A stretch of 64,000 bases of DNA from NCBI GenBank assembly GCA_947034885.2, contig OX344750.2, forward strand, positions 1,488,001 through 1,552,000, read 5' to 3'. The stretch's first letter is position 1. Each line of letters starts with the position of its first letter. A program made the position numbers and the translations under genes. Below, in pieces: positions 612-62,207 of this stretch. Below the pieces are notes generated by a model, which saw only the letters and a list, made by a program, of their open reading frames with translations, made no database searches and was not told where the DNA came from. Source of the DNA: Thuidium tamariscinum. Taxonomy: Eukaryota; Streptophyta; Bryopsida; Hypnales; Thuidiaceae.

Positions 612-2596
612 TTAATCCCTGTAGGACTAGGGTTGTTTTTCAAGAAAAATTATCAAAAAATTGTCATTTTTCAATGCATTGCTTTAAAATGAGATTAAAA
701 CCTTTTTTTAACTTCAACCATACAAATTATAGAAATACCACTTTAGAAATGTGTTGAAAAATTTCATGCCATTTGACCAAGTGGAATGAAAGATTATAAC
801 CTTTGAAGTGAAAAACAATTTTTTTTCTTATTACAAAAAGTGATCAATAAACTTTTGAGCCCCTTTCATTACAAAAAGAATGACTCATGCTAAACGCCAC
901 TTATAGACAACGGAGAACAATGGCCCTTCATAAAGACCAAAAAAAATTGAAAAAAAACTTTTTTTATTGAAATGATTAGGAACTTTGCCACATGAGAAAC
1001 CTAATGTGGCACTATCAATGCCATGTCAAATAATATTTTTTAATTAATATTTAAATTTATTATATATATATTATTATTACATTTTTATTATTTGAAACTT
1101 TAACCAAGATTGTATTGGATCATAGCTCATGAACAACCTTGAATTGGCCCTTTTATGACTTCATTTTTTTCCTAATGCGAATAATGTTTGTTCCAGAAGA
1201 ATTTAAAATTTTCCACTATTGAATTTTTAATCTTATTAAGTATGCTTGTATAAGTTTCCACAAACAAATATAAAGTCATACTTATTGCAAACCATTGTGC
1301 AATGCAATTAAGTTAATCCATAAAGGACTGTATGTCCATTGAATGTATGCAAGAAATCTTGGGTAGGTTCCTAAGTGATTGCAAGAAACACTTGTCCTAT
1401 TTTTTGTCCCCTTGGCCTTGGACAAGTGTTTTTTTACTCATAACTTTTGCGTTGTTTTTCCAATTCACACAAAACTTGAACTGAAGGTACACATAAAAGT
1501 TCTAGACATAATATAATTTTTTGAATTTTCTTAAAATTATTTTACTATTTTTAAACAACCCTTGATTGAATGTCTACCTTGGCCATTTTGGAGTTTTTTA
1601 GTCCTATTTTTGATCCCAAAATGAAAATTTTGAGATCAAAATTGGCTTGCACAAACATTTGCTAAAGTTACACAAGATCATCAAGAAATTTTCTAAAAAT
1701 AGTAAATTGTCCACCTTCCACATGTACTTAAAGTGTAGTACCAAGGTACACTTGTAGAGAACACCAAATATTTTTCTCAAAGATAAAAATATTTGAAGAA
1801 AACACCTTAAAGTTAGAAAAAATGTATTTATGACATTTATTTTTAAATTTATTTTACTATTTTAAAAGAATCAAACATCAAAATGTCTATTTTCAATGTA
1901 TTTTTCATTGTGCTTTTTTCATACATAACTTTTGGAGTTAAATTTTTGTAGGTTTAAATTTTAAAAGACACAATATTCTCATTTTTTATTTTATTTTTAA
2001 AAAATGTATTCCAAAAGTCACAGGACTCATTGAAATAGGCCATTTTGAGACAAAATTGGTAACTATTTCTTGCAACGACCCTCCTACAAAGTCATTTTGG
2101 ATTGGATATTCTTGAAATTTGAACACAATGTGTAAACATTTACCTTCTTCATAAAAATCTAATTGTTTTCCAATTGAATGCCCAAATCAAAAGTTATGTT
2201 GTCCTAAACTTTTTGAGCAACTCCAATAGCTTCAGGTTCACTTTTGCAAAACTCCTTCATTACTTCTAGAATCTGGTAGGTATCTAATTTACATGATGTA
2301 AGATGAAAACGTCAAAGAAAATAACATATGTAGTGTAAAAATATCATTCTAGAAGGAGTTAAAGGTTGTTGTCCCTATCCCAAAAAGAAAGTCTAACTTT
2401 AAATATTATAATCTTTAATTTGTGCGGTCAAAGTTTCTAAATTTTTTTCCATTCATTCTTATAGTAGGCTAGTTCAAATTTATATGGTTTTATCTTGAAA
2501 AAAAAACAACCCTTTTTTCATTTTTTTCATTGCCTTGGATAGTGGCAATTTTTTACAATTTTTGTGTGAAATGTGCCTTGGTCCTATAGGGGTTAA
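612..2596 (+). mobile_element. Family P element P1 (TTAA-flanked), split by A1
   Basis: The left end is TTAA at 612 followed by a degenerate TCCCTGTAGGACTAGG; the right end is TTGGTCCTATAGGGG followed by TTAA at 2593-2596. There is no coding capacity. Removing the nested family A element at 1373-2081 leaves about 1.27 kb. The right 320 bp recur at 9757-10049, which supports this as a repeat family. Confidence 0.6.
1373..2081 (+). mobile_element. Family A foldback-type element A1, TSD TCCT
   Basis: The left end AAGTGATTGCAAGAAACAC (first two bases changed from GG) and the right end TTCTTGCAACGACCC form the family A inverted termini. A 4-bp duplication TCCT lies at 1369-1372 and 2082-2085. It is 709 bp long with no ORF, and it sits inside P1. 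Its closest relative in the window is A8 at 61479. Confidence 0.8.
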
Positions 2597-3580
2597 GCAA
2601 ATTGGCAATACACTAGCCATTTTTGATGATTTTTTGTACAATGAAGAAATTTTTTAATTTCAAATTTACATAGTAAAAAAATAAAGACAAACATTTGGAA
2701 TATTTAGGAATTTTTGTGACCAATTCAACAAAGCCAACAAAATTTGACTCCTCTTAGAATGTGATTTGACATCTTAAATTTGATTCTCTTTGTATAATAT
2801 TATGGAATATTTTAAAGTTTATATTTGTACCAAGTTTTGAAATTTAAGGAGGGACTTATCTAGAAATGCACCCAAGATGCCTAAACTACCTATATTTTTT
2901 TTGGATAGTATACTGATTTTTGATCCAAGCACCTAGTTAGAAAAAATATATTTTTTCCATCTTAGTAGAAATGTGTTTATACCTTGTATCAAACTTTTGT
3001 AAATATATGGCAAAATATTTGACTTTGTGTGACATTATCTAAATTCTCAAGTATCCATTTAGTAGACTCTTGGTCTTTTAAGGTTTAAAAATATTTCTAT
3101 TATTTCATTATCTAAATTTCATTCCAGTACATATTGAAAATTACAAAAAGATTATCGGTTCTATTGGCATAATTATATTGTTTCCATGCTATATAAATGA
3201 ATTATCAATTTTCAAAGTATTGATAGTAGGTGCATCAAAAATCAACCCAAGGTTCACAAGTTCAAGATGTATAAAAGAATCTATAGAGGTTATTTTGTGC
3301 ACAATACAATCACATGTAAGTGTAAAGTAGCTAGGAAGGCCCAAATGTTGCAAGGGACTAGGAATGCCCATGTCCATTAGAGTTTGTGATGCAATGAACA
3401 TTGAAAGACCAATCTTGAATTGTTGAGGCTTAGACTATGAGATGAATAGTGAGCATGATTAAAGTTTTGAGTGTTAATAATAGAAGGGATCTATTACCAC
3501 AATTAGAACTTCCACATTTGTAGATAAAATTATCACAAAATATGACTATTTTAATGATATGAGTAGTGTCCCTTTAAAGA
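2597..3580. other. Non-coding AT-rich repeat remnants
   Basis: No supportable gene. A right-end-like motif CTTGGTCTTTTAAGG near 3070 suggests a further worn family P copy. The 70-codon minus ORF at 3189-3401 has no recognisable features. Confidence 0.4.
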
Positions 3581-4525
3581 AATTGTTGTTGGTACAATAA
3601 GTAGTGTCATCTTCTTTGGAGATAAATTAGACTTTAGGTAGATATCTATAGCCTCAATTTTTGACATGATTTTTTGAAACTTTCTCAAAAGATAGAAAAA
3701 AATGATTAGCTTTTTTGGAATATGGAATTTTGTCAATTGGTGCCGAAAAGCAAGAATCATGCCAAATAAGCTCAAATAAAAGATACGAGGTACTAGACGA
3801 GGTAGGAAAAAGAATTTACAAAAATTTAAATTTTTTGTTATTTTTTTGTTATGAATTACATTTTTGTCTACACTGAAAACTTTGATGTCTTTTGTTTGGA
3901 TATATAAGTGATGCAAAAGTTATGGAGCATCTTGTTTTTAGGATAGTTATAGCTACTTCTTAATTAAATAATGCATTAGATTTGTTTTTAAACTCAAATT
4001 TCATAATTTTTTCAAAAAAGAAATTTCATATGGTTTAGTTTGCTTGCTAGAAAAATTTTACCATCGGAATTTGTGTGTTTCAATTCCATCTTAGAGATAT
4101 TAACAATTCAGATTTTTATTTTGTCTCATACCTACTACTTAACAATTTTTTAAGAATGAAAATAAGGTTTTTTTTATTGAATTTTTTTTTGAGAGTCTCA
4201 AAAATTTTCACAATAAATGTTTAAACTTCTTAACTTTGAAGTGCAAATAATCTCACTTATGAAGGTTCAAAGTTAGATAATCTAGCCATATATACAAGTT
4301 GCAAAATAAATTATTTTCTTCACTTTAAACACAAATATGTTGAAATTTTTATTGCCAAAATTCCTAAAATTTATTGTTTCAAACATTCTTATACTAGTAA
4401 GGTGTATGAACTTACAATTAGATGTGCAAAAAAATAAATTCAAAGCTTTTTTAATCTTTATGATAGAAATGGCAATTTTGATTGCTTTATGGCAAAAAAA
4501 AGGCCTTGATCCATTTGGGGGTTAA
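3580..4525 (-). mobile_element. Family P element P10, left end worn
   Basis: The right end is CCATTTGGGGG plus TTAA (4522-4525). The body matches P3 (28701-29629) in inverse orientation, including the motif around 3650-3680 (CCTCAATTTTTGACATG...). The left terminus is no longer clear, so the start given is approximate. The short ORFs inside are accidental. Confidence 0.45.
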
Positions 4526-5889: not shown

Positions 5890-6574
5890 CACTAAAGATG
5901 ATATTTAGTGTTTAGTGACATTTAGTGTTTTTACCCCCCTACTAGCTACAACACTAAATCTAAACTTATCCACAATTAGTGTTAGACTTGAATGTGCCGC
6001 CTTCTCCTTCCCTGGAATTGCTTGGGTTCAGTTCATCCGAGTTCTTCACATAAGAGGATTTCTGGGCCCCCAAAAGACCGTTTCAGGGGTGTTCCCCGAA
6101 ATTGTTCCCACTGCTGCAGACCAGCCCCCTGCTGGTCTAAATTTTTGAATTTTGAAAAAAAAAATTAAAATTTTTTTTTTCAAAAAACTTCAGAATGTAT
6201 TAAAGAGAAAAAAAATGATTTAAAAATACTTTTTTTTTCAAAAAAATATTTTAAAAATATTTAATTAAAATTAAAATTAATAAAAAATTATTATTTTCTG
6301 ACGTGGCAGTCGCTTGACCACATCAGCATCACGTGCCCAGCGTTCCCAATGCGTTCCTAGTGTTTGGGAACTCGCAGTCTTGTACAGCAGCTGAAAATCC
6401 TCTTATGGTTCTTCCGAGTTCATTTCAGTTCAGCCCGAGTTCAGATTTCAGATCTTGAGTGTTCACATTTAGTGTTTGAATTGACATTTAATGTTACTTA
6501 CTTTCATAGGGTAATTGGCTTTTAGTGTATGACTTCGTATTTAGTGTACAAGACACTAAATATCATCATTAGTG
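5890..6574. mobile_element. Family F inverted-repeat element (CACTAAAG ends), host of B1
   Basis: The left terminus CACTAAAGATGATATTTAGTG and the right terminus CACTAAATATCATCATTAGTG are inverted copies with one indel-like difference. Both are bounded by TA. Several TTAGTGT words lie just inside each end. Without the nested B1 it is about 320 bp. The CACTA start and sub-terminal repeats hint at the CACTA superfamily, while the TA flank would fit Tc1/mariner; I cannot decide. Confidence 0.65.
6049..6407 (+). mobile_element. Family B element B1, TSD GTTCTTCM
   Basis: Perfect termini CATAAGAGGATTT and AAATCCTCTTATG, 359 bp, with no ORF of its own. Flanks GTTCTTCA (6041-6048) and GTTCTTCC (6408-6415) look like an 8-bp duplication with one mismatch. 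The interior has a GC-rich left part (CTGCTGCAGACCAGC), an A/T-rich middle, and a right part with GACGTGGCAGTCGCTTGACC. The 8-bp duplication fits hAT-like elements by general knowledge. Confidence 0.85.
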
Positions 6575-10732: not shown

Positions 10733-11095
10733 CATAAGAGGATTTTCAGCTGCAGTAAGAGACTGCGAGTTCCCAGACGCTGGGAACGCATTGGGAACGC
10801 TGGGAACGCGATGCTGATGTGGTCGAGCGACTGCCACGTCAGAAAAAAATAGTTTTTTATTAATTTTAATTAAATATTAAATATTTTTAAAATATTTTTT
10901 TGAAAAAAAAAATATTTTTTTAAATCATTTTTTCTCTCTTTAATACATTCTGAAGTTTTTTGAAAAAAAAAAATTTTAATTTTTTTTTTGCAAAGTTCAA
11001 AAATTCAGACCAGCAGGGTGCTGGTCTGCAGCAGTGGGAACAATTTCGGGGAACACCCTGAAACGGTCTCTTGGGGGCCCAGAAATCCTCTTATG
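10733..11095 (-). mobile_element. Family B element B2 (inverse orientation)
   Basis: CATAAGAGGATTTTCAG at the left and AAATCCTCTTATG at the right; 363 bp, the reverse orientation of B1 and B3. The flanks (GGCTGTGG and GTATTCAC) do not form a duplication, so the insertion site has changed or recombined. Confidence 0.85.
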
Positions 11096-16800: not shown

Positions 16801-17302
16801 GGAATTACTTTGCCCAATTGGACAATTTAATTCCCGATGCTCGGGAATCTTGGACAATTGTTTGATTCTTGTTCGCTCCTGGCATGCTCCTACCCTTGGA
16901 ACACCTCTCTGTAGTCTTCAATCTCCATCCTCCATCTTTTGTCTCGTGAAGCTCAAATTCTCCAAGTCATTTGCAGTGGTTTTGCCTTTAAATCCAATTT
17001 GTTCCAATATTGGATTTAGGCCTTGGTAAATCTTCTAGGTTCGTAGTAGACTCTTTTGGCTTAGCCAGTATGTCATGTGCATCCTTAAAAGGTTGATTTT
17101 GCATAGATAGTCACTAGGACTGACTAACTCTCAATCCTTCAATTCTCTGAAAACTACTAAATCTTCACACAGACTTACTTTGGAGACTTAGAATGATTAA
17201 AATTTCTAGGATTAGGAATTCTCCACCTTTTAAGTTGGTTTTCCACCATTTTGGCATAGACTGACACCAAAACTCCTTCAACACCCTTTTTATGTCTTTT
17301 TC
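13814..17302. other. Mixed-composition region upstream of the transposase
   Basis: No intact gene. It contains a GC-rich patch at 14810-15020, a direct repeat at 15446-15575, a GC-rich patch at about 15720-15840, and a stretch at 16200-16560 of moderate GC. The 127-codon plus ORF at 16646-17029 shows no domain I recognise. Part of this may be the 5' half of a large transposon or of a retroelement. Confidence 0.35.
15446..15575 (+). repeat. Direct repeat pair, period 92 bp
   Basis: The phrase AAAGGAGGTACACATGACAG with the following GTGTTTAA(A)CCGAACTTT occurs at 15446 and again at 15538, about 36 bp each, almost identical. The intervening 55 bp are not repeated a third time. Confidence 0.8.
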
Positions 17303-19138
17303 TTGAATATTTTGGCTAATTTTCGCTATTTAATCGCGAAAAATGGACCTAGAGTCCTGAGTGCCATCTCGAGGGCTCATAAGAGCCTTGCAGCCGAAGG
17401 AAGCGGCGGAGACGACCGCCCCATGGCGTCAAGTGGACGAGGTCACGGCAGGGGACGCGATAGGGGGCGCGGCCATGGCACAGGCACTGTGAACTGCTCA
17501 TTGACTGAGCAGGCGCAAAATACAATCAAGGAAGAGTATGGTCCAAGGACTTGGGGCTACAGGTACATGAACTATAACCCCTCTGTAAAACCCTTTTTTG
17601 GCCCATCTCCTGGATTGATTGAAGAGTGGGATCGGGTCCCTTCTGTGCTTCAATTATTTGGGCTTTTCTGGTCAATTCAGACCTTGAGGCGTATATGTTC
17701 CAAAACAAATAGATATGCCACAGAAAAATTGCAGAGGATGAAGCGGGGGGTAGTGAATGCTACATGCCCTAGTGATTACAAGACATATACACGTGGGGGG
17801 ATTGGGTGGAAACCGGTGGATGTGGGTGAATTGAAGGCTTTTTTTGCTATCTCATTATACATGGGATTGAAGAAACTTTCCAACATCCGCATGTATTGGC
17901 AAAAATCACAACCCTTTCTTTATTGTCACATTATTTCCCAACTTCTATCCCGCAATCGTTATTTGCTTCTATCAAAGTGTCTTCACATTACCAACCCAAG
18001 TACTATATGTGCAGACCGTGCGTCACAAACCTATGACAAAGTAAACAAAGTGAGGTGGTTGCTAAATGAAATGAGGGATTGTTGCAAGGCCTTATGGAAC
18101 AATGGGGAGAAAATCACCATAGATGAGATGATGGTCCGTTATAAGGGTGTGTATTGCCCCGTGCGGCAATACATACCCAATAAACCCGAGAAATGGGGAC
18201 TAAAGATTTGGTGTTTGGCCGATTCCGTAGCCCGTTTTGTAAGCAACTTTGACGTTTATCGTGGGGCATCTATTGAAAGTGTAGGGGCCCCTAAGTCCAA
18301 GAAAGGTGAGCCTAAGATGGGGCAAAGGGTAGTAGAGTCATTGGTTGGTGGATTGCAAGGGCGGGGACATGTAGTAGTCATGGATAATTTCTTTACAAGT
18401 GTTGAATTATTCCGTGATTTAGAGTGGGGGGGAACCTATGCCACGGGCACTCTTTGAAGCAACCGTATAGGACTCCCACAATTTATGAAGGACCAAAAAG
18501 CATTCAAAAAAGCAACGCAAGGGAGTTTGGAATGGGCAATGCATAAATCCCGCAAAATGTGTGCGGTCATGTGGATGGATAAAAAACCGGTGCTTATATT
18601 GTCCACTAGTTCTTTGCCCCTATCTTTCCCTTGTGAAATAGTGGAAGTTCCTCGTCGCAAAGGGGGAAAAATTGATAAAATCAAGACATCACCGGTTCAC
18701 ATGGAATATACTACGTTCATGCGAGGGGTTGATGTGGTAGATCAACTATGTGGTTCTTATTCTTGCCAAGTGTGTTCTCACAAATGGTGGCACCGTCTTT
18801 TCTACTTCCTTATTGATACTACCGTTGTGAACTTGTGGATTATGCACAAGGAAATTCTGAGGAAAAAAGGCCGTAAGAAAGAGTCGTTGACACATTTCAA
18901 TTTTATTTTGGCCTTGTGCAAGGCTTTGACTAGAAGTTGGACTCGCCAAAAAGCTACCATATCTCTATTATTGGAAGACATGCCTCGAATTCATTACCTT
19001 CAAAGAAGTCATTTGCACCGACTATGTGTTGTTTGTAAGCGGAGGACGAATTCTTTTTGTGCATTGTGTTCATTCCAATGGGTGTGTTATAGTCGCGGAT
19101 GCTATATGAAAATGCACCATCTTAGTGGTACATTCTAG
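17303..19138 (+). pseudogene. piggyBac-type transposase (DDE_Tnp_1_7) with one in-frame TGA
   Basis: A cut-and-paste transposase that, by family knowledge, inserts at TTAA. The frame runs 611 codons plus stop and is broken only by TGA at 18455-18457; residues on both sides are in the same frame and fit the family without a gap. Domains in order: Arg/Gly-rich N-terminus (residues 45-60); RNase H-like core with acidic residues at D274 (in TIDEMMVRYKG), D361 (in VVMDNFFTSVELF) and D477 (in MRGVDVVDQ); C-terminal cysteine/histidine cluster starting CVVCKRR. The broken codon sits where the family normally has Arg before a conserved NRxGLP, so CGA to TGA by CpG deamination is the simple explanation. 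The start could be 17303 or Met41 at 17423. Recent decay or stop readthrough are both possible; decay is likelier. Confidence 0.9.
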
Positions 19139-20136: not shown

Positions 20137-20156
20137 CTTGGGCGTTTAGGGGTTAA
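20137..20156 (+). repeat. Right terminus of a piggyBac-like (family P) element
   Basis: The sequence CTTGGGCGTTTAGGGG followed by TTAA (20153-20156) matches the right ends of family P elements. It lies about 1 kb downstream of the transposase. The preceding 200 bp resemble the sub-terminal region of the elements at 48242 and 21773. It may be the transposase element's own right end or that of a separate miniature copy; no matching left end is clear nearby. Confidence 0.5.
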
Positions 20157-20194: not shown

Positions 20195-20419
20195 TGCTAG
20201 TATGTGAGCATAGAAAGTGAGAGCGTATGAGCTTAGAATTCTATACACCTATAGTTTAGGTGTCTATATAATAAACACCTCAATGGTTATAGTATATCTA
20301 TGTTCTAAACACCTATACTATAGGTGTTTATGTTATAAATACCTTAATGAGTGTAGGATACTTACTTATACTTAGGCTCAAGGCTTATAGGCTCACATTT
20401 CTATATTCACATACTAGCA
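20195..20419. mobile_element. Family G foldback element
   Basis: The left end TGCTAGTATGTGAGCATAGA and the right end, whose complement is TGCTAGTATGTGAATATAGA, are inverted for about 30 bp. Inside, ACACCTATAGTTTAGGTGT and ACACCTATACTATAGGTGT are hairpin units and are also related to each other. 225 bp, non-coding. No flanking duplication is clear. Confidence 0.65.
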
Positions 20420-37808: not shown

Positions 37809-38029
37809 ATGGCAAATTTCATTAAAATGGAAAAATTCCATTATTTCAATGACACTTTTTACAGTTCAGACCACGCAGTCTCAAATCTAAATCTATCTTA
37901 GATTTTTGAAATCTATATGGATCATAGATGTATGAAAATCTATATTAGTCCTAGATGTTAGCTTTCAGTTCAAATGCATGGATTGAAAAATGGCATATGA
38001 AATACCACCATTTTAACAAAATTTTCCAT
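37809..38029. mobile_element. Family C element C1
   Basis: Left end ATGGCAAATTTCATTAAAAT; right end complement ATGGAAAATTTTGTTAAAAT. 221 bp. Inside are TAGATTTTTGAAATCTA hairpins. The flanks TATA and AATA may be a 4-bp duplication with one change. Confidence 0.7.
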
Positions 38030-44494: not shown

Positions 44495-45201
44495 GGGTCA
44501 TTGCAAGAAACACTTGTTGATTTTGTTGCATTTTGTGAAGTACTCATGACCTTTTCTAAAGTACTTTAAAATAAGAAAACTATTTTTTTTAAAATTTTAA
44601 AAATATGACTTATGTATACACTTCTAAAATGAAGGTACCCAGAGAAGAAAATGCATAGAAATTTTTTCTAAGTAGGAAAACTTGAAAAAGTACCAAATCT
44701 CAAGAAAAGAGGTACTTTGATGTTTTAATTAAGGAAAAAAAGTTAAAAAAAGTAAATACAAAAAATAAAAAGTGGCCATTTGCAACAACTCTATAGAAAT
44801 GGTCATTCACCAAAAAACCCACCAAAATCATATTCTATATGTTTCAAAATACAAGTAGAAAGAAGCTCACTTTGTAGACTTCTACACCACATAAAATTAA
44901 CTATTCTCTTCCCTCAAGAGCTAGAAGTCTACTAGAAGACCATTTCATCCAAATTTTATCTCAAAATAATTAGAAAAAATACTCCTTAGTACTAAAAAAC
45001 CCTAAACTACAGAGAGTGACATTTAATTGGGGTCTATTTTTGGATAGTAAAATATTTTTGAAAACTATGAAAAAATTAAAGAAGGTGTATGATAGTTATG
45101 AGTACCTTCCCTATAAATCTTGAGTCATTTGGAGCTAAAACACATAAGTTATGGCCAAAAAACAGATCAACATGCAATGTGTGACATTCTTCCAATGACC
45201 C
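44495..45201. mobile_element. Family A element A3
   Basis: Left end GGGTCATTGCAAGAAACAC; right end complement GGGTCATTGGAAGAATGTC. 707 bp. The interior shows self-complementary blocks similar to A2. Flanking duplication not clear. Confidence 0.7.
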
Positions 45202-45303: not shown

Positions 45304-46590
45304 TTAACCCCTAAAGGTTTTTGACTATGTTTTCACTAAAACCACTTCAAAATTGTCATTTTTTAGACAACTATCAAATTTTTAGAAAAAAACATTTTTT
45401 GACAAAAGTAACCATAGGATCTTTTAGAGCACAAGTTTAAGAATATGTGGGAAAAATTTCATCAATTTTCGTTGTGTAGATTGCAAGATATTAGTGTTTG
45501 AAGTGACAAAAATCATTTTTTTACCAGTGCGAAAATCCGGGCAGCTGCACTTCAGAAAACCATGTTTGTGTGGAAAAATGTCCAAAATGATTGTAACTCC
45601 TTGGATTCATTTTTCAAGTGAAGTTGGCTACATGCTTGAAAATTTTCAGATCATTTGAAATTGTACATAAGAAAAAAATAGTAAGTAGACATAAGAGGAT
45701 TTTTGGCCCCCAAGAAGACTGTTTCAGGAGTGTTCCCAGAAACTGTTCCCACTGCTGCAGACCTGCCCCCTGCTGGTCTGAATTTTTGAATTTTGAAAAA
45801 AAAAAATTCAATTTTGAATTTTTTTTCAGAATGTTTAAAAAACAAAGAAAATGATTTAAAAAAAAATATTTTAAAAATATTAAATAATTAATTAAAATAA
45901 TTATTTAATTAGTATTTTTTGACGTGGCAATCGCTCGACCACATCAGCACTGCGTTCCCAACGTTCCTAATGCGTTCCCAGCATTTGGGAACTCGCAGCC
46001 TTGTGAACCAGTTGAAAATCCTCTTAAGAAAAAGTAGAAAATGAGCCAAAATATTAAATTATTAACAATTTATTTATAGAGTTAAAAGAAGACAATCCCA
46101 ATGGTTGTAATGTTGTGTTAAACAATATACACCCAACGTTTTTATTTTTTTTCAAAAATATTAAAAATTGAATTAAATAAAGAATTTCAAACTTTTTTTT
46201 TGTAGTATAGAGATTTTATAACTAGCCGAAACTACCTCAAACTAATAATCTTCATAAGTTTTGACTCATTAATCAAAATTAAATGATTTAAAGGTTTCCA
46301 CTTAGATAAAAATCAAAGAAACCAATTTCAAATTTTAATTTTTTTTAAAAGTAATTTTTGAAGAAGTTTTTTTGTTGCCTAGGTTGCCCGTCGAGTAGAA
46401 AAATTACATATCAGCCAATAACTTTTTCACTATGTAGTCAAAAGTTATGAAAATTGTTGGGCCTTAAAGATACTCCTCAGGCACAAGTTGTGTAAAAATT
46501 TCAAAGAAAAAAACCAAAAACTCCATCTGTAATCAGCTACCCAAAATCACTATGTTGCCAAAAAACACAGTTTGGTCCTTTATGGGTTAA
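45304..46590 (-). mobile_element. Family P element P4, split by B3
   Basis: TTAA 45304-45307 with CCCCTAAAGG; right end TTTGGTCCTTTATGGG with TTAA 46587-46590. Without B3 it is about 950 bp and matches P2 in inverse orientation, including GCAGCTGC... at 45540. Non-coding. Confidence 0.8.
45690..46026 (+). mobile_element. Family B element B3, inside P4
   Basis: Left end CATAAGAGGATTTTTGG; right end GAAAATCCTCTTA with the last bases changed. Its interior follows B1 closely. Short ORFs over it are by-products. The host phrase it breaks is continuous in P2. Confidence 0.8.
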
Positions 46591-46769
46591 AACCTTCACT
46601 TATTCTTCTGTAACCAAAGAAAACTTTGGCACGACACCTGGTCAACTTAGCATCATGGAATCCCATGAGACACATAAGAAGTTATGATGAAAAAATGCTC
46701 TCGACAGTAGGAGGTTCGAAATTCATAAGAGCTAAATAGTTGCAATTTCTCTTTTCAAGTTGTGAATTT

Positions 46770-47081
46770 ATGTCGAATTTTGTTAAAATGGTGGTATTCC
46801 ATTAGCTTGACACTTTTTATAGTTTAGATTGTGCAATCGGAAATCTGAATCTATTATAGATTTTTGAAATCTATAGTAGTCGAAGATGTCGGAATTCTAT
46901 ACCAGTCCAAGATGTTTTAGATTGCACGATTGGAAATCTAAATCTATCATAGGTGTTGGAAATCTACATGGGTCCTAGACGTTTGAAAATCTATACCTGT
47001 CCTAGATGTCAGTTTTCCGTTCAGACAGCGGGCTGAAAAATGGGGCATTTGAAATACCCCCATTTGAACGAAATTTGCCAT
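46770..47081. mobile_element. Family C element C2, TSD ATTT
   Basis: Left end ATGTCGAATTTTGTTAAAAT; right end complement ATGGCAAATTTCGTTCAAAT. ATTT at 46766-46769 and 47082-47085 is the duplication. 312 bp with two internal repeats of the type GGAAATCTAAATCTAT. Confidence 0.75.
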
Positions 47082-47085
47082 ATTT

Positions 47086-48241
47086 GTAGTTTCCTCATCC
47101 TTCGCTTCACATCAGAATCCCAAAAGACTAACAACTGCTAGTTAGGAGGGAAACTGCACAGACTCTTCTTTCCAGTTGACCTTTAGAACTAAACTGCTCA
47201 ATTTCGCAAATTAATAATCAGCAATTCACAAGTCCACTCATTGCTGGTATACCTGTAATCCAGGGGCCCACTGGCATGGAAAAGAGACCCTAAAGCAAGG
47301 ATGCGCATCACCCATTGTTTAATTCCGATCAAATTGTACTGCTTGCACACCACTCCTTCCAGTTATCAACGATCGATACACAGTTACCAACATAGCAAAC
47401 GTCGGTTTAGCCGAAATGCAACTTATTCTGGAAAGCCAGAATAAGATGTCGATCTTCAGTCGATCGGTTTGCTAGTAAACAGAGAGTGTTCCTTCGCTGT
47501 GTGGAGAGACGGAGGGCTGAGAGCCAGAGTTGCATTCAAGATCACTTCGATGAATGTCACAGTGCCGCTACTTCGGACTACAGTGGTCTCGACAGAGGCT
47601 CACTCACCAACACTCGGACTCGTTGAGATTTGTAGTGAAACTGGCGGAGACGAATGGAAAGCGTAGACGTGTAAGAATCGTCGTTCAAGAAAGAAATTAC
47701 ATAGGCACATTAGAAGAAAGTCTAAGAATCATGAAAGATTTTCACACTATATATACTGAATATGGGAAATGCTGCATTGTTAGTCTGGTTGCGCTTTAGA
47801 AGTATGCATGTGTAAGCTCAGAAATGTGAAAGAAAGAAAGTCGTTGAACACCGTAACATCATACACTTCAAATGTGTCAACTTTCAACTTCTTACGCACA
47901 TAGTGTGCAGCAACAACGATCATGAATGTCCTTTTCGTGCACTATCATGAAACTATATATAAAATCAATTGATATGTACAGTTCGATCAACGACGTCTTT
48001 CACTGACTAATTATGTAATATACTCAAATGAAAATATCCATTGATGACGACTAAATACAACCGGTTTTTGGAGCATCAGCAACGATGCACTATCAAGCAA
48101 TATGACTACAACAACAAAGTCTGAGCTTGAATAGGAACTACACCAACCACACAGTGAAATTCTGAATTGACAAAGCTCTCAGCTACTCAGCCCAATTCTC
48201 CCTATAAATTTGACAATCTCCGGGCACTCTCTTGTTAACCC
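47086..48241. other. Unassigned region with more genic composition
   Basis: No recognised gene. Contains overlapping ORFs at 47469-47666 and 47554-47799 without motifs, and a perfect hairpin at 47422-47445 (CTTATTCTGG, AAAG loop, CCAGAATAAG). It may hold an unidentified exon or a non-coding RNA, but nothing decisive is visible. Confidence 0.3.
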
Positions 48242-49173
48242 TTAACCCCTAAAGGACCAACATGCATTTTTTGGGTGTATAGAAATTTTGGGCAGGTACG
48301 TGTGATTGGAAATTTGAATATTTTGGGCTGAAATTTTAATAGAAGGTGAGGGCGAGGAATATCTTCATGTATACCAAATTTCATGACATTTGGAAATATG
48401 AGTCAAAAGTTACGGCCTAATATGTTGCTTTTTTTTGTAACTGGGCAGTCCGGGCAGATTAGAAAAAGTCACTTTTTTCAAAAATAAATTTTTTTAACTT
48501 GTTTTCTACATTTATATACAAGTGGAAAGCTTTGAATCATTTCATTTCAATCAAAGAGTCAAAAGTTATGAGTTTTTTTTGTTTGCGGGCAGTTATGGAT
48601 TCTCTACTATTAAAAAAACTTTGAAGTCATTTATTTCACTCAATTTTCAATATTTTTGGAAAAAAATAAAATCCTAGGATTGAGATTGATTGTTACAACA
48701 TTACAACCATTGGGATTGGCATTTTTTAATTCCACAATTAAATTCTTAACGATTTAGTGTTATGAATCATTCTCTACTTCTTTCTACTTACTATTTTTTT
48801 CCTATATGTTGTACAATTCCAAATGATGTGAAATTTTTTGAGCATATCCCCATCTTGTTTAGGAAACTGAATTAAAAGAAGCACCACCATTTTCAACATT
48901 TTTTCTTTGAGAAGTGAGCATGTGAAGTGCAGCTGCCCGGTTTTTTGCAGGATTGAAAAAATGGTTTTGGTGAATTTGAATGCTTATATCTTTTGATCCA
49001 CACGGTGGAATTTTCTGAAATTTTTACCACATGTTGTTTAGACATTATACTACGAGATCCTACGGTTACATATGTCAAAAATTGTTTTTTTGAAGAAAAT
49101 TGGTAGTTGTACTAGAAATGGCAGTTTTGGAGCATTTTTGGTGAATAGATAGTCATGGAACTTTAGGGGTTAA
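48242..49173 (+). mobile_element. Family P element P5
   Basis: TTAA 48242-48245 with CCCCTAAAGGACCAAC; right end GGAACTTTAGGGG with TTAA 49170-49173. 924 bp between. Same subfamily as P2 and P4, sharing GCAGCTGCCCGG at 48929. Non-coding. Confidence 0.85.
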
Positions 49174-49519
49174 ATAAACATTCCATGTTTCCATTTGGTC
49201 AAGGTTCATTCGTTTTCTATATTAAAATACACCTTTCTAAAATTTGGTATGTCTTGCATGTAGTCATACACACAATATCCAAAATTAAACTTCTTTTTAA
49301 CATAATTAAAACAATAATATGCAATTTATATGATTTTTTTGACATATTTTCTTTATAAAAATCATAGTAATTACAGAACATGTTTTAAATAGTATGAAAT
49401 TTTGATTGAAAATTTGGAAATGATAGTGATAAAAATGATGGTGTAATTGGTATATTCCTTGAGCACACCTTAAGAGGAATTCAACAAGTTCCAAAATGGT
49501 ATACTTTAAATTCTCAAGA

Positions 49520-50252
49520 GGGTCGTTGCAAGAAACACCATGCAAAAAGCGTAGCATTTTCAAATATAGTCTTTTTTTTTCCAAGAGTACTTTAAAATTA
49601 GAAAAAAAAGTTTTAAAAAAAGTGAAAAATATGTTTCGTGTATAAACCTTTAAGAAGAAGGTACCCTAGAAAGGAAAGGCATAGGAAAAATCTCTAAGTA
49701 GGAAATCCAGAAAAGTGCAAAATCTCATGAAAATTAGTACTTCCACATTTTAATTTGTAAGAAATAGGAAAATCAATTTTTAGAAAAACTAAAAATTGTC
49801 CATTTGAGGAAAGTTGATTTTGATGAAATTTGACCAAAAGAACGATCTTAGAACCATCATCAATGTTCAAAAATTGCGTGCCATAGGAAAAAATTTGTAC
49901 TCATGTGGAGGACATAAAAAAATATATTTTTGAATTTTTATTTGGAATTTATAGGTTTTACACCTATGCAAATAGACCATGAAAGTTTCGTCTTCAAATC
50001 ATTAAATTTAGACACTGCGAACGTAATGATAACCATAAACGTAATTTTGTGACACCTGAATAAAAATGTTTTTTAAATATAAAATGATTTTTTTTAATTT
50101 CTGAAAAATAAAGGATCTAATAAACTTCAAGTTAGGTATGTTCAATAAAAATTTCATGTTCATTGGACTTAATCTCCAAAAGTTATAGTGGAAAACAAAA
50201 AAGTGGTTCACGACGTGTTGCGAAATAGGTCCGGTGTTTCTTGCAATGACCC
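49520..50252. mobile_element. Family A element A4, TSD AAGA
   Basis: Left end GGGTCGTTGCAAGAAACAC; right end complement GGGTCATTGCAAGAAACAC. AAGA at 49516-49519 and 50253-50256. 733 bp. It is the closest relative of A6 (58232 onward). Non-coding. Confidence 0.9.
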
Positions 50253-50256
50253 AAGA

Positions 50257-51018: not shown

Positions 51019-54000
51019 TTATCTTCTGGAACTGATGATGAGCTGCAAGCCATACTTGGGCTTGGTGAGCAGGCTATGGCATGGGTGGTGTTTGTAGTTG
51101 GGCGAGACTGCAAGGTGGAAGCGTCGGAGCGCCATGGCGATCACGACCTTCGCCTCCATGACGGCGAAGTCCTTGCCGATGCAGCTCTTGGGTCCGATGG
51201 CGAAGGGCATGAACGCCTGCGGAGGACTGCACGCGCCCGCCACGCCGTGCTCGAAGCGCTCCGGCTTGAATAGATGCACGTCGTCGCCCCAAATCGAAGC
51301 GTCCTGGTTCAACGCCGCCAGAGGGACCTCCATCACCAGGCCCTTCGGAATGAAAAGGTCGCCGATCTGCATGTCCGTGGTGGCCATTTTGGAAATGGAC
51401 GAAATCACGGGGAACACGCGCAGGGTTTCGTTCAGAATCATCCCCACCTGCAACGAAGTGAACGTACGTTAAATTCCAGCCAACATATGTTCACTTCATC
51501 GATCAGCTCTCCACTCAAGTATGAGCGCCTCCATGTGCACACTCTAACTTAAATAGCGATCAGAGAATTTCAAAGTCTGTACATTTGAAGGCAGAATGTT
51601 TAGCAATGAGTGCTTCCTTGAAGTTCCAACAAGAAAAGGATTAAGAAACTGCAAACACGGAACATGTAAATCAGCGAGGAGGTCCAGTGGTCCGCACTTT
51701 GTTGCCTTGGATGCATGCCAAGGACTCCTTATTCTATTTATATGTTAAAAGAGGTCACCTTTTCAAAAATTTCTAATCAGTACTTACAAACTGAACTTTG
51801 GCAGCATGAAGATGAGTCACCATTTAAAAAAAGTAATTTAGCTTTCAATGTCAAACCTGTAACCTATTTTCTTGAGGTAAGAACTTCGAAAATTGAAAGA
51901 GTTATGGCAAATGCATAACGTGGAAAATCAAGCTGTCCAACGGAGCGAGCCTCGAACAATTGGAAGAGCCTACTCTGAAACCTACTTTAGGTGAGCAGCT
52001 AATGCACTATTACAAGATGTCCGAATTCAAGGACCTCTACGTTAATTAGAGGGTTCGAGAAAACTTACAATTTTCAACCTGGATATGGCGTCGGCATCAA
52101 TGGTGTCCGACTCGCCGAGCACCTCCAGAACCTCTCGCCGAGCTTTGTCTTGCCAGTCCGGGTAGCGCGCGAGCTGCAGGAGCGTGAACGTGAGCGCGCT
52201 GGAGACGGTGTCTTGTCCAGCGAAGAAGAAGAGCTTGGTGTTGTTGAAAACCGAGGCGAGGTTGAACTCCGGAGCAGTTTCGTCCGTTCCGTCGGATGCA
52301 GCGGCCAGCATCATCCCCAGGAGGTCGTTCCCATAGGAACCCGCCTCGCCTCGCTTCAGCGCTTGCTGCCGGTCGAAGATCACCTCGTGCAGCAAATTGT
52401 CCATACGAGATTTCAGCTGCGCCATGGCTCTGTTCTTCTTCGTGGGCAGGTACCTGCACATTCAACTAGTTTCGGATGTCAATACAGATTCATGTACCTG
52501 CCGTGGCACCGAAACAATCCTAATCCCATGCCAACCCTAGTTCATAACCTCCTCTGTTTGGTACGCAACGTGGGCAACTGGGTTTCGTAATGGCATCTCT
52601 AGTAGGTAAAATCAAGAGTACTAGTAGAAAAAAATAGAATTTTAGGAGAGAGGGAATTTGGTTGAAGTGGTGTGATCCTACGACAGGATTTGTGACACAG
52701 ATCCACACGCAAAGCTCCAATAAAACCAGGCCAGGTCTAGATTTACATTTCAGGTCTCTTCGGCTGAAGGTGTCGACGTCGTGGAATACCGCCGATTTAT
52801 CGAAACTGACGTTTTAAGCAAAGTAAAAAATATGAGCGCTCTTGTTCTGAACGTAATTCATAACCAATGTTTTCAGAACCCCAAAGACAATGAGACATTA
52901 GTCACGGCTTAACGAAAACTCCTTCATTAAATTCTATAACTTTGGAACCCGAATTCTCTCTGGCAGGACCTGTTGCATTCAAATTAAAGTCTTCCTAGAC
53001 TCCATCCTAATTCGTAACCTGGTCATCAATCGTGAACCTAGGTTGGGTGGGGAAATTCGATCCGGTGATTCAGGTTGAGAAAAAGAGGAATGCCCTTACA
53101 CAAAGAAAGGTAAACAAGGAAAATTTTAAGCACAATAACTGACAACTAATTGATATCCAACGTCCTTATAACACAAGAAACTTAATTATTTCAACTTGAA
53201 CCTGTTCAGCAGCGTAAGACAAACTAAGATGCTTATTGCAGGTTTAGTCCAGCCTACTGTGGACTGAGGTAAGTGCGAGAGGTAAGAAAGAGACCAGATT
53301 GCTTGTGGTTCGATTACCTGAACCCTGGGATCCAGTAGAGGCCACTGTCCAGACGTTCGAACAGGAGCGCGACGAATTGCCGCTGCGTTCGAAAAATCTC
53401 CTTCGCCTTCTTGCGGTCCGTGCCGAACGCCGTGTGCGCGATGACATTGTTTGAAATCGCATTCAAGTCGTCCTCGACACTAATCTCCACGGAGCCTCCA
53501 GCTCCACACGCCTCTTCCCACTCATGCAACACGGAGTTCACACTGCTCACCATGCCGTCCACTAAAGCCTGCAATCCTCGCGACCGCCATCACGTCAAAC
53601 CAACTGAATTCATTCGATCGAGATATATTGAAGAACTGATAATCCAGCAATAGCGAGCTGGGAAGGTCAACTTTAAAGAATTAATGTTCAAAATTCGTGC
53701 AGCTACTGGAGTCGATGGAGTGTCGAGAGTGGTGTGATCTGGATGGTTCCCACGCGTACCTTCAAGACGTCCTGATAAAAGAAGGAGTTGAGAGTGCGTC
53801 GCTCGATGGCCCACTTCTCACCTGTTAAGTTATCCAAGCCCAAGCCCACAAAATCCCTGAGCATTGCGATATCATCCGGGTGGCGCTCGAAGAAGCCATA
53901 CTTGGACGACAGCACTTCCTTCGCGAACTGGTAATCTCGTGACACTAGCTTCACCTGGGGTCCACAGTAGTAGATGAAGCGCTTGCCTGCGCAGTCACAG

Positions 54001-54938
54001 ATCCAGTGCCCAACGACACCGACACCCCACTTACTTTCATTTTGGGATACCAATCCGATTTGAGCAGCTTGCCACTAGCACTTCTCGCTGTCGAGAAGAT
54101 TATAGCTATCCGGCTACCTTCACCTAGAAATTTGAATTTATTCTGACGCGGCTTCGTAACTCACGTTTAGTTATTACAATAACAGTAATAAGCACGTCTT
54201 GAATTCTGTGACCTAGATGAAATGACAGATTTCAGATGCCCCCCTCAAATCTCACAAGTCCTAGTTCTCAAAAGTAGCTCGGGGCACTACAGAACCCTCG
54301 TTTTCAGGACTCTGAGCACTAGATCGTTTAATTTAGCGCGCTCGGGGCGATTGAAAGTCTTAGTTTGCGGAATTCAATAGACTAAGAACTTGGAGTCAGG
54401 AAAGTCTAAATTCTGGACGATTCAAGGAATAGACCCATCTAAGTAGATTACAGGATCGGAAGGATCGATCATTGCAATATCAGAATCCATGTTTCCGACG
54501 GCAGCTAGTAAGGACTGCTCATGCAGTGTGGCAGCTGGAGAGCTTCCAAAACGGCGATGAATGGTCTCCTTGTACAGAACCGAGAGTTCACTCAAACTTA
54601 CCGAATCTCGGAAAGTAGAGACGGAATTGGGATTTAACAGTGGGCAGCAAGTCGTAGTGCTCATCGAGCGGCATCGACTCAGGAAACGATTTCTCGAACG
54701 CGGCCAACTCATGAACCGATCCCACGACGGGGATAAACGGGGGTCCTTGCACCCCTTGCTTCGCCAAAACGCGGCGGATCATCAGCGGGTCATACAAGTA
54801 GCATTTCAACAGTCTCACGACCGAGCTCAACACCACGCTCGCCACCCACGCCAACAGCAGCACCACCAGTCCATTGCGCAAGTCCGCCGCCGTCAGGCCC
54901 AATTCCCGCGCCACCACGACCAACGGTCGAACTCCCAT
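51019..54938 (-). CDS. Cytochrome P450, CYP72 clan (five exons, 542 aa)
   Basis: A haem-thiolate monooxygenase, probably anchored in the ER membrane; the substrate cannot be told from sequence. Exons on the minus strand: 54938-54602, 53986-53760, 53568-53318, 52453-52069, 51447-51019. All introns are GT-AG and phases agree (1, 0, 2, 0), giving 542 codons and a TGA stop. Seen in the protein: hydrophobic anchor about residues 22-40; proline-rich hinge GPPFIPVVG at 65-73; I-helix AGQDTVS at 350-356; K-helix ExxR E407-R410; PERF at 462-465; haem loop FAIGPKSCIG at 482-491 with Cys489 as ligand. The region FAKEVLSSKYGFFER and the C-terminal KPKYGLQLII are typical of the CYP72 clan (CYP709/714/734/735 relatives). 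The usual Arg two residues before the Cys is Lys487. Exon 1 is GC-rich against an AT-rich setting. The family assignment is firm; the subfamily is open. Confidence 0.95.
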
Positions 54939-57145: not shown

Positions 57146-58225
57146 GAGTAATTGCAAGAAACAATTAAAGTCTTTTGTCACATCCTAGCTTTGGATTTTC
57201 TTTTTGCCATAATTTTTGTGTTTTAGCTCCAAATGACTCAAAATTTATAGGAAAGCTACTTATAGCTATTATGTATCTATAATAAATTTTGGAGATTTTT
57301 CAAAAATAATTTATTACTTTTAAATAGCCCCGAAAATTTCTCACAATACTTGATTTAGGGGGGTTTAGTACCATTTATCCTCCAAAAATGAATTTTGACT
57401 TAAAATTTGGAAAAGGTGGTCTCTAAGTAGACTTGTAGCAACTGTGTAAGGTAACTCTAAAATTATTTTTATGTCTTGTAGAAGTCCACAAATAGAGCTT
57501 CATTCTGCATTTTTTTTTCAAAAGTATAAAACATTATTTTGGTGAGTTTTTTGGTCAAATCTCATAACCAAATTCTTTTTCAAATTTTTTATTTATATAT
57601 ATATATTTATTTAAATCCTGTTTTTTACAAAATAAAATGTCACAAGTTATATTTTCTTCACCAGATTTCTATGAGAATTCTATGTCCAAAGTTCCGGTGA
57701 AGAAAATACAACTTGTGACATTTTAATTTGTAAAAAATAGGATTTTTTAAAAATATATAAAAATATAAAATTTGAAAAAACTCTTTGGTTATAAGATTTG
57801 ACCAAAAAACTCACCAAAATAATGTTTTATACCTTTGGAAAAAAATGCAAAATGAAGCTCTCTTTGTAAACTTCTGCAACACATAAAAATAATTATTTTT
57901 AGAATTACTTTAGAAAGCAGCTACAAGTCTACTTAGAGACCATCCTCTCCAAAATTAGGTCAAAATTCATTTTTTTGGCAATAAACGATGCTAAAAAATC
58001 CTAAATCAAGTATTGTGAGAAAATTTTGGGGCTATTTAAAATGTTCAATAAATTATTTTTGAAAAATCTCCAAAATTCATTATAGATATATAATAGATAT
58101 GAGTATCTTCTCTATAAATTTTGAATCATTTAGAGCTACAACACCAAAAAATAGCTAAAAAAAATAAAAAAAACTCGGGTGTGACAAAACGCAACAAATG
58201 GTACAAGTGTTTCTTGCAATCACCC
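57146..58225. mobile_element. Family A foldback element A5 (about 1.08 kb palindrome)
   Basis: Left end GAGTAATTGCAAGAAACAA (worn); right end complement GGGTGATTGCAAGAAACAC. The body is one long palindrome centred near 57685: for example CACAAGTTATATTTTCTTCAC pairs with GTGAAGAAAATACAACTTGTG. It is related to A2 across its length. No clear duplication. Confidence 0.75.
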
Positions 58226-58231: not shown

Positions 58232-59622
58232 GGGTCATTGTAAGAAACACCATGCAAAAAGCATAGTATTTTCAAAGTACTCTTTTTTTTAATTTAGGAT
58301 GGCTAGAAAGTAAAAGCATAGAAAAAATCTCTAAGTAGGAGAACTAGAAAAGTGCAAAACCTTATGAAAATTGGTACTTTCACATTTTAATTTGTAAAAA
58401 AAAGGAAAATCAATTTTTTTTAAAACTAAAAATTGGCCATTTAGGAAGAGTTGATTTTTATGAGGGTGATTGCAAGAAAGGTCGGTACTATTTTGCATCA
58501 CATTTTGAATTGCGAAGTTGTCATTGACTTATTGACTATATCTTTTAAAGAATAAACTAGATTAACTTGAAATTTTGATTGAAGATGTCCGATATGACAA
58601 GAATTAAGTTCATTAATTCTTAGAAATTTTCAAAAACCATTTTATAATTAAATTTCAATTAAGCTAATTTGTCACACTTTGTGGTTTAGGGTTTTTTAGT
58701 ACTCAGGAGCATCCAAAATTAATGATCTAAAGCTAACATTTTTGTGGTCTATTTCTATACTAGGTAGGCATGTTTCTACGAAAGGAAATTTCAAAAATCA
58801 TTATTCTCTTTCCTCTACATGTGTGCTAATAGGCCTCCCTTGTGCACGTACTTTTGAACATTTAAGATGGTTTTGAGATCATTCTTTTGGTGAAATATCT
58901 TCATCATAAAGTTCTCCCAAATTGCCAATTTTTAGTATTTTAAAATTATTTTTCCTATTTCTTATAAATTAAAATGTCAAAGTACCTATTTTCATGAAAA
59001 TTTGCACTTCTCTAATTCTCCTACTTAGAGAATTTTTCTATACTTTTTCTTCCTAGGGTACCTTCTTCTTAGAGGTACATATATATAACATATTTTTTAT
59101 ATTTTTATATTTTCTTAAATTATACAATATTCCCAATAAATTCAGTAGTACTGTAGAAAATGCTACCAAAACCAATCAGTCTTTCTTGCAATGACCCTGA
59201 GATTTCACCAAAAGAATGATCGTATAACCATCTTCAATGTTCAAAATTGTACGCAACATGATATAATTTGTACTCATGTGGAGAACATAAAATAACATAT
59301 TTTCAAATTTCATTTGAAAGTTATATATTTTATACCTATGCAAATAGACCATGAAAGTTTTGTCAACAAATCATTAAATTTGGGCACTCATAACATAGTG
59401 ATAACTATAAAATATACCTTGTGATACCTCAACAAAGATGGTTTTTAAATATAAAATGATTTTTATAATTTAAAAAAAACTAGGTATCAAATTACCTTCA
59501 AATTAGGTATATTCAACAAAAATTTAATATTCATTAGACTTTAGCGCTAAAAGTTGTAGTAGACAACAAAAAAGTGATTGATATTGTGATAAGAAATAAG
59601 GCAGTTATTTCTTGCAATGACT
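58232..59622. mobile_element. Family A element A6, split by A7
   Basis: Left end GGGTCATTGTAAGAAACACC; right end complement of about GAGTCATTGCAAGAAATAAC. Without A7 it is about 657 bp and matches A4 along its length. It begins 6 bp after A5 ends. Confidence 0.8.
58464..59197. mobile_element. Family A element A7, nested in A6
   Basis: Left end GGGTGATTGCAAGAAAGGTC; right end complement GGGTCATTGCAAGAAAGAC. It interrupts a phrase of A6 that is continuous in A4 (near 49825). TGA occurs at both borders (58461-58463 and 59198-59200), one base shorter than the usual 4-bp duplication. 734 bp. Confidence 0.85.
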
Positions 59623-61143
59623 CCAATTCTACTTAAGGTTAAATAGAAATTCAAATTTAATTTTGAATGCTCTTGAATCATAAATAACATTAGTACCTTT
59701 GTATGTTGAAACTAGCCATATATTCAAATATTATATCTATATTTGAAAAGCCTTCTAAACTGTAGAGCAAGCACATTATGGTGCATACCAAATATATTTC
59801 ATACATACCTAACCCTATAAGGTTGCAAAGGACAAAAAATTGGTGTATGAATTGTATTCAAGGATATATAAAGTAGAAAATGAAGAAATGAAGAATTTTA
59901 ACTTTTCATTCTATAATTTGTATTTTAGACTTTCTTGAGTGTATTCGAAATAGATGATCGTAGAAATTTATTCATTGAGATCATTTTGAGATTTTTTATA
60001 TGAAAAAATACTAATAAAATGTATCAGATGTTATGTTTTATAAAAGATTGTAGCCATTTGTACTTGTTTTTTTAAATATTAGCCAAAATTTTCTCTTTCT
60101 TGATTTTGAGACCAACTAATAATAATAAATTTATGAAGTTTTCTATTCCAATATTAAGAAATTTAAACCTTCTAAAATAACATATTTTATTCCAATTTTG
60201 AACTTTGGAATTGTAAAGACAATTGATTGTGTTTTTAGTCATAGAATGATGTAAAAATCTCCTTTATGTTATGACACTCTTAGTTAGGATATACACCTAT
60301 ACTAAAACTTTCATTTTTATGGGCTTAAGGTGTATTTGACCCGGGTATGCAACTCTTATATTGTATGCAAGGGTCATTGGCATTAAAATGGCTTAGAAGA
60401 TGGCTTTTGTTGAAATTGTATCAAATTAAAAAGACCAAAAAGTTAGGTGATTATGATGGACAAACTAAAAGAAAATTAATTGTAGAAAATATTGCATTGT
60501 ATACATTTTAGAACTAATTCACAATATAACATTAGTATAATCCAAATTTTGTCAACTTAATATTAGCGTTATGTTAGTAGGCTTGGCATTAAGTTGATAT
60601 GTCATTTTTGTTGCAAATCTTGGAATGAGATTGTCGAATGTGTGTGCAATTAAATAAAATTCAAAGGTTATGAAGAGTTGAAACACCTATGCTTACTTGC
60701 TTAGTTTTAAAAATCCATACTAGAAGTTCCCTCCAATTAAAATTTTATTAACTAGTCTCAAAATTTAAATAGCTTGGCCCATAATATAAACTAGTGTGCC
60801 GTGTGTTGTTGCCACAATCAAATCTAATTTTTGAATGCATAAAAACTTTGAAATTCAATAACTCTCACATTATATGTCCAAATGCCACAAAACAAAGTCC
60901 GTGCACCCTTCTTCACTAGGGGCTTTCTAATGGTACCAAGATTGCGACCAAAATATAAGTAAAAATAATTTTTTAATTTTTTAGAACAAAAATAACTAAA
61001 AATCCATAACTTTCTCACAAAATCAGCCCGTACACCCCTCCTTGCCGAGAGCTTTTTAATGGTACCAAGCACGCAATCAAGGGACACACGGTCCGGGAGA
61101 TCTCAACATGACAAATAAACAAAATAAGAAAGAATATAACAAG
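59623..61143. other. Non-coding AT-rich stretch
   Basis: No gene supported. The 87-codon minus ORF at 60824-61087 contains an internally repeated phrase (GTACCAAGATTGCGACCAAA and GTACCAAGCACGCAATCAAG), which suggests a short tandem duplication of about 140 bp. Confidence 0.35.
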
Positions 61144-61200
61144 ATGCCAAATTTCGGTGAAATGGCGGTATTCCATTAGTTTGACACTTTTGACACTTCA

Positions 61201-61480
61201 GACCGCGCTGTTTGAAATGTAAAACTATTATAGATTTTTGAAATCTATATGTATTATATATGTCTAAAATCTATACTTGTCCAAGATATTTTAGACCGCG
61301 CTGTTTGAAATGTAAAACTATCATAGATTTTTGAAATCTATATGTATTATATATGTCTAAAATCTATACTTGTCCAAGATATTTTAGACCGCACGGTCTG
61401 AAATCTAAATCTATAATAGATTTTGAAAATCTATAAGCATCCTAGGTTTTTGAAAATCTATATCAGTCCTAGATGTTAGG
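61201..61480 (+). repeat. Tandem repeat, 93-bp unit, three copies
   Basis: Units start at 61201, 61294 and 61387 with GACCGCGCTGTTTGAAATG (third unit GACCGCACGGTCTG). The first two are nearly identical. Each contains TAGATTTTTGAAATCTA, a short hairpin. The unit is part of family C3 and is found once or twice in C1 and C2. Confidence 0.85.
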
Positions 61481-62207
61481 GTCGTTGCAAGAAACACTTA
61501 CCGGTTTTGTCTCAAAATGGCTCAAAATCAATGAGTCCTGTGAGTCCTGTGACTCTTTGAAATAAATTTTTTTTAAATTGAAAAAAATATGGATAATTTG
61601 AAGAGCAATGAGAATATTATGTCTCTTGAAATTCAGACCTAAGAAATTTTTTCTCTAAATGTTATAGACAATGGAAAATACAATGAAAATAGCTCTTTTT
61701 TCACTAATTTGGTAAAAATAGTAAAAAAATTCAAAAAAAGAAAATGAAAAATCCTTTTTTTCTTCAAGTAAAGGTCTTTCTTTTCCGACAAATTTCATAT
61801 TTGGAAAAAATAAATTCTATTCTCTACACGTGCGCAAAGTCAGCCACTTTGACGACATGTGGAAGTTGGACAGTTTAATATTTTCAAAAATACTTTTTAG
61901 GGATTGTGTAAATATACTATATATCTAAGCATGCCAATTTTCAGCTCAAAATTTGCATTTTTAGATAAAAAAATAGGACTAAAAACCCCCAAAATGGCCA
62001 AGGTAGACAGCCAATTGGGGGCAGTTTAAAAATAGTAAACTAATTTTTAAAAAATTGAAAAAATTACACAACGTATAAAACTTTTGTGCTCACCTTCATT
62101 CCAAATTTCAAGTTGATAGGGCAAACTATGCAAAAGTTATAAGCAAAAAACTACCTGTTGGAGGTCAAGGGGACAAAAAATAGGACAAGTGTTTCTTGCA
62201 ATCACCC
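61479..62207. mobile_element. Family A element A8, TSD GTTA, nested in C3
   Basis: Left end GGGTCGTTGCAAGAAACAC; right end complement GGGTGATTGCAAGAAACAC. GTTA at 61475-61478 and 62208-62211; the uninterrupted phrase AGATGTTAG is seen in C1. 729 bp, related to A1. Confidence 0.9.

Follow-up and report, generated by a model that had tools for sequence, protein, structure and literature searches.

Among plant DNA transposons, hAT elements duplicate 8 bp of target on insertion, and CACTA and Harbinger elements 3 bp. The excerpted text of a review of plant transposons gives 7–12 bp for Mutator, 2 bp (TA) for Tc1/Mariner, 4 bp for Sola and 4–6 bp for Ginger (PMC10741241), and under the Repbase rule, in the excerpt available, a superfamily is named from the first 11 bases of the element together with the duplication length (PMC4455052). 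As far as the excerpted sources go, Ginger1 and Ginger2 make 4-bp duplications and have TGTNR ends, Ginger1 using CCGG or CCGT as its target (PMC2836005), the piggyBac target duplication is TTAA (PMC5199201), and a survey of miniature inverted-repeat transposable elements (MITEs) in 207 plant genomes sorts them into five superfamilies plus Micron (PMC12550479). For the Drosophila element Galileo, template switching in gap repair has been offered as the cause of its structural variety (PMC4168063, in excerpt), and in two of the three complete copies of Tetris the tandem repeats within the arms cluster according to the copy that carries them, possibly through homogenisation (PMC4079207, in excerpt). 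In this work we analyse 64,000 nucleotides of Thuidium tamariscinum (Bryopsida; assembly GCA_947034885.2, contig OX344750.2, positions 1,488,001 to 1,552,000; hereafter the window), which contain a transposon family, family A, with common inverted ends and well-supported 4-bp target duplications. An earlier reading made without database searches (the sequence-only reading) had described the family as foldback-type; its observation is partly confirmed and holds in substance, and its interpretation is partly supported.

Inverted ends, target duplications and unoccupied sites

Family A comprises eight elements (A1–A8), whose 16 inverted ends each lie within 4 mismatches of the 19-base GGGTSRTTGCAAGAAACAC. 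Allowing up to 3 mismatches, this end occurs at 14 sites against 0.04 expected by shuffling, a count reached in none of 100 shuffles. Raising the limit to 5 mismatches gives 19 sites, of which 16, all at up to 4 mismatches, pair into A1–A8; the three unpaired ones (15767, 27886 and 33106, each with 5 mismatches) are taken as chance. The consensus, roughly 20 bp long, reads GGGT(C/G)(A/G)TTGCAAGAAACAC, with columns 3, 8, 9, 11, 13, 14 and 15 invariant in all 16 ends.

Exact 4-bp duplications flank four of the eight elements (strand is not set for any of them): A1 (1373–2081, 709 bp; TCCT at 1369–1372 and 2082–2085), A2 (35344–36435, 1092 bp; CTAG at 35340–35343 and 36436–36439), A4 (49520–50252, 733 bp; AAGA at 49516–49519 and 50253–50256) and A8 (61479–62207, 729 bp; GTTA at 61475–61478 and 62208–62211). 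These are the same four duplications that had been claimed from the letters alone. Random 4-mers match in the window at a rate of 0.0066, so that at least four matches in eight have a probability of 1.3e-7, copies taken as independent. At 2 bp and at 5–10 bp no copy has exactly matching flanks, and at 3 bp only A7 does (58464–59197, 734 bp; TGA). The right flank of A7 is TGAG, and on the left TGA is succeeded by GGG, so that a 3-bp TGA and a 4-bp TGAG (one G being shared or lost) account for the flanks equally well. A7 is nested in A6 (58232–59623, 655 bp without A7), the flanks of which, CACT and CAAT, are alike in three of four bases. Inspection of the flanks of A3 (44495–45201, 707 bp), which has no exact duplication left, and of A5 (57146–58225, 1080 bp) revealed no convincing duplication.

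The joined flanks of all eight elements were queried against the window. In the case of A8, two unoccupied relatives span the junction, at 46862–47081 (78%) and 37865–38029 (80%); on the plus strand, the site at 37895–38031 has GTTA once, and the one at 46945–47083 has GTCA at the target. The empty counterpart of the A7 site is contained in A4, where the matching stretch runs uninterrupted with 85% identity over 302 columns; removal of 3 bp from the A7 join leaves no gap at the junction, and removal of 4 bp leaves one base missing. Insertion of A8 and of A7 is documented by these unoccupied relatives inside the window. Weaker matches also cross the A7 junction, from its own right arm (77%) and from A5 (72%), as expected if the right arm of A7 and A5 share that module. 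For A5 and A6 the matches that crossed the junction were those of the query with its own surroundings, and for A1, A2, A3 and A4 no match of the joined flanks to the window crossed the junction.

A tandem repeat with a unit of 93 bp (61200–61435, 2.5 copies) stops about 40 bases before A8; its relatives lie at about 46770–47082 and 37809–38030.

Pfam scans covered 39 of the 87 stop-to-stop open reading frames (ORFs) of at least 80 amino acids in the window, including all five that overlap family A copies. None of the five scored above the curated cut-off, the one sub-threshold match being DltX (16.4 against 25 bits); above the cut-off among the 39 were a piggyBac-type transposase (DDE_Tnp_1_7) and a cytochrome P450. 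The longer element proposed earlier as something to look for, in which these ends would enclose a transposase, was not found in the window; pairing of the sites at up to 5 mismatches yields the eight short elements and no others.

Family A is a genuine family of DNA transposons, old and non-autonomous. Its copies are short and AT-rich, with paired inverted ends, a fixed-length target duplication and no transposase gene, as in MITEs. A1, A3, A4, A7 and A8 measure 707–734 bp, and six of the eight copies (A6 counted without A7) stay below about 800 bp, A2 and A5 being about 1.1 kb long.

Arms and hairpins

For the comparison of arms every element was divided in the middle, which gave 16 arms. The left arm of A1 matches the right arm of A8 (79%) and its right arm the left arm of A8 (68%), A1 being colinear with A8 turned round (72%). 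The left arm of A4 goes with the left arm of A6 (88%), the right arm of A7 (80%) and the left arm of A3 (73%), and its right arm with the right arm of A6 (79%) and the left arm of A7 (65%). Another type is formed by both arms of A2, both arms of A5 and the right arm of A3, which are mutually 68–84% alike. A3 is thus a mosaic of a left arm of the A4/A7 type and a right arm of the A2/A5 type. These comparisons indicate that the arms of family A behave as modules, which is new here. A 60-base painting of the arms was too noisy for breakpoints and was given no weight.

A5 is palindromic over 57173–58189, with 82.6% identity. In A2 the palindrome is an inner one (35541–36239, strand not set; 82.3% over 705 columns), and the outer parts, about 200 bp on each side, are poorly complementary, with an arm identity of 50% at alignment columns 101–200. 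The description of both elements as near-complete palindromes of about 1.1 kb is therefore correct for A5 and was overstated for A2, in which only the inner 0.7 kb is palindromic. Among the six remaining copies a match between an element's own arms (E-value 1e-3) was obtained only in A4, 95% over 20 bp, and this is the end itself. If foldback elements are those in which long inverted arms make up most of the element, the term applies fully to A5 and in part to A2; it does not suit the other six, nor the family as a whole.

Predicted RNA folding gave −517.6 kcal/mol for A5 and −426.3 kcal/mol for A2, against −207.2 and −214.7 kcal/mol for two controls of similar length, that is, folds 2.0–2.5 times as stable per base. 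The predicted fold of A5 is one long hairpin, all 459 of its predicted pairs being arranged about the centre, and most of A2 also forms a long hairpin. Per base, A1, A3, A4, A7 and A8 scored between −0.20 and −0.23, and four controls between −0.17 and −0.20 (A6 was left out). If transcribed through, A5 and A2 would, on these predictions, give long hairpins; the sequence-only reading had expected as much, which agrees with the fold of A5 and, for most of its length only, with that of A2.

In the quartet formed by the arms of A2 and A5, 48 sites unite the arms of one element, 4 unite same-side arms and 6 opposite arms. A tree that also includes the right arm of A3 joins the two arms of A5 with a support of 100 and sets the two arms of A2 apart from the A3 arm and A5 with a support of 96 (0.999 and 0.906, respectively, in a second set of support values). 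As the arms of A2, and likewise those of A5, are closest to each other, each hairpin appears to have arisen, or to have been re-homogenised, separately. Descent of A2 and A5 from one ancestral palindrome, the arms of which diverged together, is compatible with their use of the same arm type, but it predicts that same-side arms match best, against 4 same-side and 6 crosswise sites and 48 within the element; surviving only if arm-to-arm conversion came later, this explanation is unlikely.

Starting from the observed ends, duplications, empty sites and gene-less mosaic interiors, we regard family A, with a probability of about 0.88, as an old non-autonomous cut-and-paste family, mostly of MITE size, which was moved by a transposase encoded elsewhere, makes 4-bp duplications and has mosaic arms and two hairpins. 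Such a transposase would have recognised the ends of about 20 bp and excised the element, and joining to staggered breaks would have produced the 4-bp duplications. During repair of the excision gap, copying may have switched between arms or copies, so that arms were replaced, and in two copies an inverted duplicate of one arm would have given rise to the A5 palindrome and to the inner palindrome of A2. By analogy with Galileo and Tetris, template switching or homogenisation may have acted in family A.

Several points speak against this proposal. An autonomous copy was not seen in the 64 kb, A3 and A5 are without duplication and A6 and A7 have imperfect ones only, and a genome-wide rule of 4 bp cannot be proved from the eight copies of a single window. 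The right arm of A3 is placed only weakly by the split-defining sites (of 28 scorable within-element sites, 14 agree with A2, 7 with A5 and 7 with neither). Moreover, matching arms of different copies are 65–88% alike, and at this level late conversion and separate palindrome formation are indistinguishable.

The piggyBac-type transposase and other features of the window

The piggyBac-type transposase is present at 17234–19135 as two pieces in the same frame with one stop between them (DDE_Tnp_1_7, E-values 5.2e-53 and 6.6e-14). Solved structures matched by the first piece are 6x67, which is named Transposase, and 9c0f, a piggyBat transposase. On the minus strand an end, TTAACCCCTAAACGCC, is located 1 kb beyond the transposase (20141–20156), and no left end was recognised; just past the TTAA end at 20156 there is an imperfect tandem repeat with a 30-bp unit (20245–20344, 3.2 copies), partly palindromic. 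The plant transposon review (PMC10741241) nowhere uses the word piggyBac, and the excerpted fern repeat table lists it (PMC6890710).

Six further elements have TTAA at either end, followed by CCCCTAAA or a close variant (40513–41173, 62451–63123, 45304–46590, 48242–49173, 21773–22725 and 28701–29629); the search pattern itself included TTAA, and the ends were paired by the analyst. The six, none of which has an ORF of at least 100 amino acids, probably depend on the piggyBac-type transposase as its non-autonomous partners. That the same protein, or a relative less strict in its target, also moves family A would make use of an ORF that is at hand in the window. The TTAA elements, however, have TTAACCYYTAAA or a close variant at their ends where family A has GGGT..TTGCAAG, no match at an E-value of 1e-8 links them with family A, and none of the four exact family A duplications is TTAA. 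Given these duplications and the differing ends, the piggyBac-type protein is not a likely mover of family A, and we consider a shared mover very improbable.

The long inverted repeats at 45304–49173 could be taken for one big foldback element; this was rejected, as they belong to two TTAA-flanked elements in opposite orientation. Rejected as well was a single composite element of A5 and A6, the outer flanks of which mismatch. A repeat of about 0.35 kb, 80–93% alike between copies, occurs at 6048–6407, 10733–11095 and 45689–46026; its inverted ends are CATAAGAGGATTT...AAATCCTCTTATG or closely similar. The copy at 45689–46026 lies inside a TTAA element, and the relative of that element at 21773–22725 is without the repeat. 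Pieces of a cytochrome P450 gene span 51022–54074 on the minus strand: 51022–51468 (E-value 3.3e-30), 52045–52461 (2.7e-20) and, just below the cut-off (21.1 against 22.8 bits), 53706–54074. Their G+C content is 53–59%, against 34% for the window, and together with the protein itself this would point to a plant host. No Rfam or transfer RNA features were found in the window.

Superfamily and comparison with known systems

Family A is a plain kind of element, the superfamily of which we leave unassigned, with Sola as the leading lead. The contrast between 4 bp and the familiar plant families, drawn in the sequence-only reading, agrees with the lengths given for Mutator and mariner in the review excerpt cited at the outset; for hAT, CACTA and Harbinger it is a contrast with the 8 bp and 3 bp stated there as background. 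Mutator, with a rule of 7–12 bp (PMC10741241, in excerpt), was rejected, as none of the eight copies has an exact duplication at 7–10 bp, and Ginger was excluded by its end rule, since none of the 16 ends begins with TG.

A tentative suggestion, short of even odds, is that the host genome has a Sola family to which family A belongs as its non-autonomous part, moved by a Sola transposase. Exact 4-bp duplications in four of eight copies agree with it, and Sola, named earlier as a known group with 4-bp duplications, is indeed described so in the review excerpt, along with very variable ends, inverted repeats of 11–1124 bp and occurrence in a moss (PMC10741241); the excerpted repeat table of the fern Ceratopteris lists both Sola and piggyBac (PMC6890710). 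Sola stays only a lead, and the scan of 39 of the 87 ORFs brought up no Sola transposase. A superfamily undescribed, or unrecognised in plants, with 4-bp duplications and GGGT...ACCC ends is possible but doubtful. In its favour, family A fits neither the Ginger rule (TGTNR ends, CCGG/CCGT target) nor the TTAA of piggyBac; against it, none seen is not the same as absent from Repbase. The remaining probability is spread over other superfamilies.

An exact scan for the ends returned no match in viral contigs and two in genome contigs, in collections that may leave out records of the host genome. The two matches, in a Spirochaetales and a Woesearchaeota metagenome-assembled genome, are taken as chance, each contig having a single match within 8 kb even at 3 mismatches. 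Judged by title and the start of the abstract, none of the seven papers containing the core TTGCAAGAAAC was about transposons, and the matches listed for 4-bp, foldback, Sola and Ginger elements included no family with these ends, which does not show family A to be unpublished. A bolder account, and a quite improbable one, would be an unrecognised transposase superfamily of some land-plant lineage, marked by 4-bp duplications and GGGT...ACCC ends, the non-autonomous copies of which repeatedly become hairpins when one arm is exchanged for an inverted copy of the other.

The plant MITE survey being limited to five superfamilies plus Micron, a 4-bp family could be passed over by it; if family A copies have a transposase of their own, such families could be missed or misfiled in surveys of this kind. 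To our knowledge, a 4-bp duplication marks none of the five. The window is a small and clean example of foldback structure that came into being, or was renewed, separately in each of two copies of one family, beside copies with unlike arms. The step from MITE to hairpin can be traced in family A, and the predicted hairpin is a possible source of silencing RNA.

Compared with known systems, family A resembles plant MITEs, being short and AT-rich, with inverted ends, target duplications, no recognised gene and one nested copy, and differs from them in a 4-bp duplication that is not known to be typical of any of those five superfamilies. With Ginger1 and Ginger2, in the excerpted description, it shares 4-bp duplications; it starts with GGGT in place of TGTNR, and its targets are TCCT, CTAG, AAGA and GTTA, unlike the CCGG or CCGT of Ginger1. 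Sola, which the excerpted sources report for a moss and also list for a fern, comes close in its 4-bp duplications and long, variable inverted repeats; the likeness is one of descriptions (duplication length and repeat variability), no Sola transposase accompanying family A here. Tetris duplicates 8–10 bp and Galileo belongs to the P superfamily, whereas family A is foldback-like in only two of eight copies; with these Drosophila elements it has in common a variable modular structure and, in some copies, long inverted arms.

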